A DNA stretch of 64,000 bases, taken from positions 1,178,001 to 1,242,000 of the forward strand of contig CP099514.1 of the NCBI GenBank assembly GCA_025809375.1, written 5' to 3'. The notes below the pieces were generated by a model. It was not told the DNA's origin. It saw only the letters and a program-made list of their open reading frames with translations, and made no database searches. The stretch is from Bacillus zhangzhouensis. Lineage in GTDB: Bacteria; Bacillota; Bacilli; Bacillales; Bacillaceae. Of the stretch, positions 1,424 to 31,350 are shown piece by piece (position 1 is the first letter of the stretch; the number at the start of each line of letters is the position of its first letter). A program made the translations under genes and the position numbers.

Positions 1424-1590
1424 CAGCGTGTAAACAAGCCCTCGCACTCGGTGTCAGTCCTCTGCGCTGGTGCTCACGAATGTCCAATTCGCTCCGCGCC
1501 AGCCTAGGGCTGCAAAGGTTTTCTATCACGCTGAAAAGAAGACAAAGGGCTAAAATCAACATCATTTTAGCCCTTTGTCAACAATCTGAG
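1424..1590 (+). repeat. Dispersed structured repeat, copy A
   Basis: About 167 bp, similar to 19162-19329 (same orientation) and to the complement of 31144-31321. It begins CAGCGTG (1424-1430), whose complement CACGCTG recurs at 1527-1533 and would close a stem. Inside is an imperfect hairpin with arms near 1466-1484 and 1488-1506. At the 3' side is a perfect stem, ACAAAGGGCTAAAAT with ATTTTAGCCCTTTGT (1542-1579). It lies between the convergent genes ykwC and ykwD. Reading frames crossing it are not credible genes. Confidence 0.85.
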
Positions 1591-1602
1591 GTTTTTTTGA
1601 TA

Positions 1603-19161: not shown

Positions 19162-19329
19162 CAGCGTGAAAGACAAATCCTCGCATTCGCCCGCAGTCCT
19201 GCGTGCCAGTGCTCACGAATGTACAATTCTTCACTCGTCCTTCCAATACTTCAAACGTTTTCTATTACGCTGAAAAGAAAACAAAAGGCAAAAATGAAGA
19301 TCATTTTAGCCTTTTATCAAGAATCTGAG
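19162..19329 (+). repeat. Dispersed structured repeat, copy B
   Basis: The most diverged of the three copies, directly downstream of ykuI and in the same orientation as copy A. Outer stem CAGCGTG / TACGCTG is kept with a G-U pair, and the 3' hairpin is shortened to about AAAGGC(A)AAAAT / ATTTTAGCCTTT. The 3' edge AATCTGAG matches copy A exactly and runs straight into the terminator at 19330. Confidence 0.75.
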
Positions 19330-19352
19330 CAGCCTTTTAGGCTGTTTTTTTG
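19330..19352 (+). terminator. Terminator after ykuI and repeat B
   Basis: CAGCCT-TTT-AGGCTG followed by eight T. Confidence 0.85.
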
Positions 19353-19411: not shown

Positions 19412-19497
19412 ATAGAGAGAAGCTACTCTCTGTTCCCCAACCCCTCTATCAGATCAAGATCCAAAAAACTTGGCGCTACCCCCGCCAAGTTTTTTTT
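19412..19497 (+). ncRNA. fsrA: Fur-regulated small RNA FsrA
   Basis: A transcription unit of about 86 nt between the Fur-controlled promoter and the terminator stem AAAACTTGGCG / CGCCAAGTTTT plus T-run. It holds no reading frame but has an early stem (AGAGAGAAGCTACTCTCT) and C-rich single-stranded tracts (CCCCAACCCC, CTACCCCC) that would pair with Shine-Dalgarno sequences. Position downstream of ykuI, size, Fur box and C-rich tracts match B. subtilis FsrA, which represses iron-rich enzymes (succinate dehydrogenase, aconitase) when iron is short. The 5' end is inferred from the -10 element. Confidence 0.88.
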
Positions 19498-31124: not shown

Positions 31125-31145
31125 GGTCTAACTGATGTTAGACCT
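31125..31145 (+). repeat. Left flanking hairpin repeat of element C
   Basis: A 21-bp sequence (stem GGTCTAAC / GTTAGACC, loop TGAT) identical to 31324-31344. It follows ykuU and has no T-run here. Confidence 0.85.
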
Positions 31146-31321
31146 CAGGATTGTTGACAAAGGGCTAAAATGATGTATATTTTAGCCCTTTGTCTTCTTT
31201 TCAGCGTGATAGAAAACCTTTGCAATCTAGGAAGGACGAGCACTGGCGCGGAGCGAATTTGACATTCGTGAGCACCAGCGCAGAGGACTGACACCGAATG
31301 CGAGGGTTTGTCTACACGCTG
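31144..31321 (-). repeat. Dispersed structured repeat, copy C (inverted)
   Basis: Complement of copy A (1424-1590) with high similarity throughout, including the 3' stem with ATTTTAGCCCTTTGT and the closing pair CAGCGTG / CACGCTG. It lies between ykuU and ykuV and is bounded on both sides by the same 21-bp hairpin sequence. There is no reading frame of note. Confidence 0.88.
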
Positions 31322-31323
31322 GG

Positions 31324-31350
31324 GGTCTAACTGATGTTAGACCTTTTTGT
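31324..31350 (+). terminator. Terminator and right flanking repeat of element C
   Basis: The second copy of the 21-bp hairpin (31324-31344), here followed by TTTTTGTTT, so this copy can terminate transcription from ykuU. Confidence 0.8.

Follow-up and report, generated by a model that had tools for sequence, protein, structure and literature searches.

IS1272 and TnSha1, both of the IS1182 family, target DNA hairpins, often those of transcription terminators, without sequence specificity (Wan 2017, PMC5678879; Furi 2016, PMC4923244). According to the available extracts of both reports, these elements replace or partly delete the hairpin and form no target duplication (PMC5678879, PMC4923244); duplication of the whole stem-loop is drawn by Wan et al. 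as pathway b of a model (PMC5678879). The repeat described here, three copies of which lie in the window (the whole 64,000-nt stretch analysed), resembles IS1272 and TnSha1, as those extracts describe them, in its hairpin targets regardless of sequence, in its putative link to a transposase of the same family and in ends that form stem-loops. It differs in that the stem-loop is duplicated and in that the element carries no transposase. Set against hairpin deletion or replacement by IS1272, the stem duplication found here is therefore a variant of family behaviour that is new relative to these extracts, and a literature search, with most subscription journals outside its coverage, returned no recognised description of this element or of observed IS1182 stem duplication. 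Compared by description, the repeat also resembles BOX, RUP and SPRITE of pneumococcus, likewise short structured intergenic repeats; a term search of the available part of the review covering them found no mention of Bacillus, IS1182 or IS1272 (PMC10969869).

The repeat itself, its IS1182-like ends, its empty sites and the frequent duplication of the hairpin at which it lies are firmly established.

Copies in the window, in the chromosome and across the genus

A sequence search combined with folding recovered three copies of a structured repeat with the pairing that the first-pass annotation had described. The features at the three sites are as follows.

1395–1422, no strand assigned: left stem-loop copy of the terminator after the ykwC-like gene, AAACTG...CAGTTT, without T-tract (in empty-site relatives a single stem-loop stands directly before the T-tract)
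1424–1589, plus strand: element copy 1, classed as an IS1182-type MITE (repeat search, fold)
1592–1598, plus strand: T-tract of the ykwC-like terminator, right of copy 1, without a right stem copy
19162–19328, plus strand: diverged element copy 2, in the ykuI–fsrA interval (repeat search)
19330–19351, plus strand: ykuI terminator stem and T-tract, right of copy 2, without a left stem copy
31125–31144, no strand assigned: target duplication 1 at copy 3, stem-loop GGTCTAACTGATGTTAGACC (flank comparison, empty sites)
31145–31321, minus strand: element copy 3 (repeat search, fold)
31324–31343, no strand assigned: target duplication 2 at copy 3, identical 20-bp stem-loop (flank comparison, empty sites)
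31344–31348, plus strand: T-tract that follows the second stem copy and completes the ykuU terminator (flank comparison, empty sites)

Over ungapped matching pieces, copies 1 and 3 are 95–97% identical and copy 2 is 77–86% identical to either. The element stops at ...CTGA, which corrects the CTGAG end assigned earlier. The two 20-bp copies of GGTCTAACTGATGTTAGACC that bracket copy 3 are absent from the first-pass annotation. At copy 1, the stem is found only on the left, and the right flank reads GG followed by seven T. Each copy directly follows a gene, in agreement with the YkwC-like, YkuI and YkuU-like assignments made before: an NAD-binding dehydrogenase consistent with YkwC precedes copy 1, YkuI (PDB 2bas) precedes copy 2 and an AhpC/TSA peroxiredoxin consistent with YkuU precedes copy 3. 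The absence of a conserved frame is also borne out at the level of ORF coordinates, as ORFs of at least 60 aa over copies 1 and 2 differ in start phase relative to the element and no ORF of at least 60 aa spans copy 3 on its own strand.

The FsrA small RNA (Rfam RF02273, 115.7 bits; 19412–19494) begins 83 nt past copy 2, which places the element between ykuI and fsrA. FsrA is the only match in the window to the curated Rfam models at gathering score; the repeat matches none of these models, and a known Rfam structured RNA family is thereby rejected as its identity. On the strand opposite the element in copy 3, positions 31154–31194 contain matches resembling sigma-70 promoters, together with a hairpin that resembles a terminator and ends in a T-rich tail, and a T-rich stretch also follows the element's 3' hairpin on this strand.

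A search of the 3.28-Mb chromosome to which the window belongs yielded 75 aligned pieces, which collapse by position into at least 40 whole or fragmentary copies; this is a minimum, as scoring covered 40 of 78 candidates. A simple ORF rule assigns 20 of these 40 to gaps between convergent genes, 19 to gaps between tandem genes and one to a gap between divergent genes. Across 61 genomes, the source genome among them, 32 contain a match, namely 31 of the 37 genomes of the genus and one weak case outside it (E 4e-4); five of the 31 (G002, G013, G018, G022 and G032) have weaker matches only, one or two each. None of 50,697 phage records matches, which rules out phage carriage within that collection. 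Of 72,556 plasmid records, four match. One of them comes from B. subtilis; the other three (NZ_CP078511, NZ_CP078512 and CP063894) bear the labels Stutzerimonas or Klebsiella, and we suspect them to be mis-assigned Bacillus DNA.

One genome of the genus (G004) probably links the repeat to a model organism. Its YtvA, RocF and EfeB proteins match solved chains without mismatch, bar one tag residue; these chains are presumably B. subtilis entries, and we take the genome to be B. subtilis. The 14 matches in this genome merge to 10 places, at 0.32–0.74 and 3.11–4.14 Mb of the 4.2-Mb chromosome, all in the origin half. B. subtilis is said to carry a 190-bp repeat in about 10 copies in the origin half, five per side, with relatives in B. 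licheniformis. The 10 origin-proximal places agree with this account, whereas their split of six and four departs from five per side. Judging from chromosomal distribution, the repeat probably belongs to the same family as the 190-bp repeat.

Empty sites and the duplicated target hairpin

At the copy 3 site, six of nine B. pumilus-group genomes are empty and three (L123, L124 and L125) are filled. The empty site in relatives reads GGTCTAACTGATGTTAGACC-TTTTT; in the occupied site the same 20 bp stands on either side of the element, and the T-tract follows the distal one only. The copy 2 site is empty in seven of nine B. pumilus-group relatives and filled in two (L118 and L122), with no left stem seen there. 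Among 14 genus genomes compared at the copy 1 site, which may overlap the nine B. pumilus-group genomes, seven are empty (L186, L187, L192, L193, L196, L197 and L199), six are filled (L188, L189, L190, L191, L194 and L195) and one (L198) is too diverged.

The element is found at stem-loops, mostly those of intrinsic terminators, and the stem-loop is often present twice, once per side. An ungapped direct repeat occurs at both ends of 44 of 67 full-length copies (12 of 26 from the own genome and 32 of 41 from relatives), compared with 0–1 in shuffled left/right pairings (20 shuffles). The 67 copies, 26 of the 40 own and 41 from relatives, were drawn from 152 profile hits by leaving out duplicate own-genome copies (L001–L030), copies lacking an end or enough flank, and repeats; the relatives' loci are best-scoring matches, so the sample favours well-kept copies. 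When gaps are allowed, 52 of 67 lie above the 99% control level (14 of 26 own, 38 of 41 from relatives) and only two above the control maximum; occasional pairing of orthologous sites with one another is the probable reason for so high a maximum. The direct repeat is 16–30 bp long in 42 of the 44 duplications and spans about half a hairpin in the remaining two (L044, 11 bp; L063, 15 bp).

Complete IS1182 elements behave in the same manner: the hairpin is duplicated in 25 of 27 and in none in each of 20 shuffles, the 27 being taken from 40 loci that are themselves a part of the matches. In three of these elements (L093, L095 and L109) the 11–13 bp duplication covers, by eye, only part of the hairpin, and the two exceptions among the 27 (L100 and L102) have hairpins on both sides that are unlike each other. 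Taking the 44 element sites and 25 IS sites together, the centres of hairpin and duplication are no more than 1 nt apart at 63 of 69, compared with 18 of 277 control windows, so that the targets are inverted repeats regardless of sequence, as for IS1272. At 63 of 69 sites the duplicated stem is preceded by an A-tract, followed by a T-tract or both, a figure without a control.

The duplications range from 11 to 30 bp. With the six off-centre sites dropped, Spearman correlations of duplication length with loop, G-C span and full stem are 0.16, 0.22 and 0.31 (p 0.32, 0.18 and 0.05) at 40 MITE sites and –0.21, 0.57 and 0.23 (p 0.33, 0.005 and 0.29) at 23 IS sites. Length is thus at best weakly correlated with hairpin size and is not a simple function of it; what is firm is the symmetry about the hairpin, not exact foot-to-foot cutting.

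Fifteen of the 67 copies, including copies 1 and 2 of the window, show no left/right similarity even with gaps, and 12 of these fall among the 26 own copies; by eye, the stem-loop is kept on at least one side in all of those 12 except L043. Some of the 15 could be replacement events, not decayed duplications. Together with the replacement or partial deletion of hairpins without target duplication by IS1272 of the same family, in the extracts cited (PMC5678879, PMC4923244), these copies would fit stem-loop replacement as the general mode, the flanking duplications being secondary. We consider this quite improbable, since simple replacement would not yield two matching stems, and the loss of the target stem-loop without duplication is not what prevails here: the hairpin is duplicated in 44 of 67 MITE copies and 25 of 27 IS, and the 20-bp duplication at copy 3 can be compared directly with empty sites.

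Several sites bear signs of activity and of re-use of the target. Two copies (L046 and L049) with a similarity ratio of 0.99 and a common internal deletion have different target duplications. In L189 the stem duplicated by a first element houses a second one, whose far end lies beyond the sequence read, and in L194 an IS1182 end, located after the second stem, likewise occupies the duplicated stem. One IS1182 element (L078) lies inside the 3' hairpin of a repeat copy; targets are thus not confined to the terminators of genes themselves. The IS1182 end beside the repeat in L194 (relative G016) continues, by eye, into 16S rRNA-like sequence, a junction that hints at rearrangement or misassembly.

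The Bacillus genus includes naturally competent species, and copies could in principle have spread without transposition, through recombination or gene conversion among terminator regions. Two 60-nt repeat fragments (L069 and L070, at 2666 kb and 223 kb) have identical 60-nt flanks and are in effect one fragment, as recombination would produce; their identical flanks also mean that a larger genome segment may be duplicated. Among the 40 own copies, however, flanks beyond the stem are common only to this pair, those of the other copies look unrelated by eye, and insertion borders are sharp, with the same element bases at start and end (by eye). Spread by recombination is accordingly the least credible of the readings considered, and we hold it to be highly improbable.

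Fold, covariation and the case for an RNA element

Folding predicts the outer CAGCGTG/CACGCTG stem, the imperfect central hairpin and the 3' stem alike. The predicted folding energy is –71.2 kcal/mol for copy 3 (z –10.3) and –68.9 kcal/mol for copy 1 (z –8.0), values reached by none of 200 shuffles in either case. For covariation, 76 distinct copies were reduced to 34 at <95% similarity and 160–190 bp. The G-U pair noticed earlier in the outer stem of copy 2 is real: columns 7 and 120 hold GC in 33 and GU in one of the 34. In the covariation check, 13 of 42 pairs have changed on both sides and 94.7% of cells are paired, neither value being reached by any of 500 shuffles; the tested structure was taken from the copy 3 fold, and related sequences may beat shuffles without structure, relatedness being partly controlled. 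Sliding the structure by 1–3 columns lowers the paired cells to 32–45%, a comparison in which the tested structure has an advantage owing to its derivation from the copy 3 fold.

The covarying pairs are concentrated in the 3' stem (9 of 16), with a further 4 of 10 in the central hairpin, 83.9% of whose cells are paired. The outer and inner stems are almost invariant, and an invariant pair is uninformative. The RNAalifold consensus is without the central long stem. Hairpins are also present at the ends of IS1182 elements, so a covarying 3' stem fits what a transposon end would require. Stem covariation beyond chance therefore fits structure at a transposon end, in DNA, as well as a 3' UTR RNA.

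With empty and occupied sites and at least 40 copies in the chromosome, this covariation contradicts every part of the outcome that the first-pass annotation had set against its own reading, namely three copies only, no covariation and no occupied/empty pairs. The strong folds, the 13 pairs changed on both sides and the position after genes are all compatible with a 3' UTR element selected for RNA function, as an mRNA stabiliser or regulator, whose mobility is long past. Against this reading, the sites vary among species, some hold tandem insertions and one variant has been copied recently; the covariation falls mainly in the 3' hairpin, in overlap with the transposon end; and IS1182 elements likewise have end hairpins. 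Compensatory change in a near-perfect palindrome can also arise through templated repair, which counts against taking the covariation as a mark of RNA function. We therefore regard an RNA element as unlikely, while giving it more weight than replacement or recombination. The earlier alternative of a miniature mobile element or a 3' UTR RNA element stands in its first half, by virtue of the IS1182-like ends and the empty and occupied sites; as to the second, the stems do covary, and nothing found needs an RNA function.

Relation to IS1182 elements and a proposed mode of insertion

The element ends CAGCGTGTAGACAAA and TTTGTCAACAATCTGA resemble the ends of IS1182-family insertion sequences of the genus and match each other at 12 of 17 positions, forming imperfect terminal inverted repeats. 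An IS1182 remnant (L104) has a left end that agrees with CAGCGTGTAGACAAA of the own-genome copy L032 at 15 of 17 positions, the first 15 being identical. In a comparison with an intact IS of G016 (L090), the 5' end of the element shares 14 of 17 positions with each of the two IS ends, and its 3' end shares 15 of 18 with one and 13 of 18 with the other. Two IS1182 transposases scored 474 and 478 bits, the NCBIfam IS1182 cut-off being 270. Among the IS compared, none has both ends identical to those of the element, and the element interior has no similarity to any of three IS tested beyond the ends, which rules out these three as the source of the interior.

At roughly 160–185 bp, the multicopy element is too short to encode a transposase of ~450 aa. 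The own genome contains 11 matches to the IS1182 transposase domain, nine of which belong to near-identical 1.55-kb elements, each flanked by two copies of a stem-loop. The ends of a second IS1182 subgroup, represented by intact elements in G016 (L090 and L107) and by a decayed one in the own genome (L071), are closer to those of the repeat, and from this resemblance we infer that this subgroup is the best-fitting candidate for the helper transposase. Two genomes (G030 and G004) contain the repeat and no IS1182 transposase-domain match, so that any movement in them would lie in the past. From sequence comparison, the best explanation of the repeat is a MITE of the IS1182 family, with putative mobilisation by an IS1182 transposase.

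The decayed second-subgroup element of the own genome (L071, 1300–2950) abuts, at its left end, a truncated repeat copy in inverted orientation, the two being joined through the shared sequence TTTGTCTACACGC. In IS1182 elements such as L090 and L072, a T-rich stretch follows the left-end hairpin, making it terminator-like; a left end of this kind might protect the transposase gene from read-through.

We consider it very probable that the repeat is a MITE whose ends would be recognised by an IS1182-family transposase and which would insert at DNA hairpins (palindromes), mostly the stem-loops of intrinsic transcription terminators. Both strands would be joined at positions symmetric about the hairpin centre, so that gap repair would duplicate the stem-loop. 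Structure-guided strand transfer is likely, and it would take place near the feet of the hairpin, on a hairpin or cruciform. A duplicated stem can be re-used as a new target, as L189 and L194 show. Where the whole stem has been doubled, the A-tract would stay with the left stem and the T-tract with the right stem, leaving a predicted terminator for each strand; as the stem copy before the element has no U-tract, the element is predicted to be carried in the 3' UTR. A more specific proposal, which we hold to be somewhat better than evenly balanced, is that the transposase would read DNA structure and not sequence, the extruded hairpin or cruciform setting the stagger, so that each insertion would clone the terminator, spare the host and re-create the target.

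These results provide an identity and a likely mechanism for a repeat found in 31 of 37 genomes of the genus, probably including a long-known repeat of its model organism. They offer 69 natural insertions for stem-loop duplication, an outcome that the available part of PMC5678879 only drew as a model pathway and that is unlike the published IS1272 result. They further suggest a low-cost way of spreading next to genes, in which the element lands after a gene and would leave a terminator on each side.
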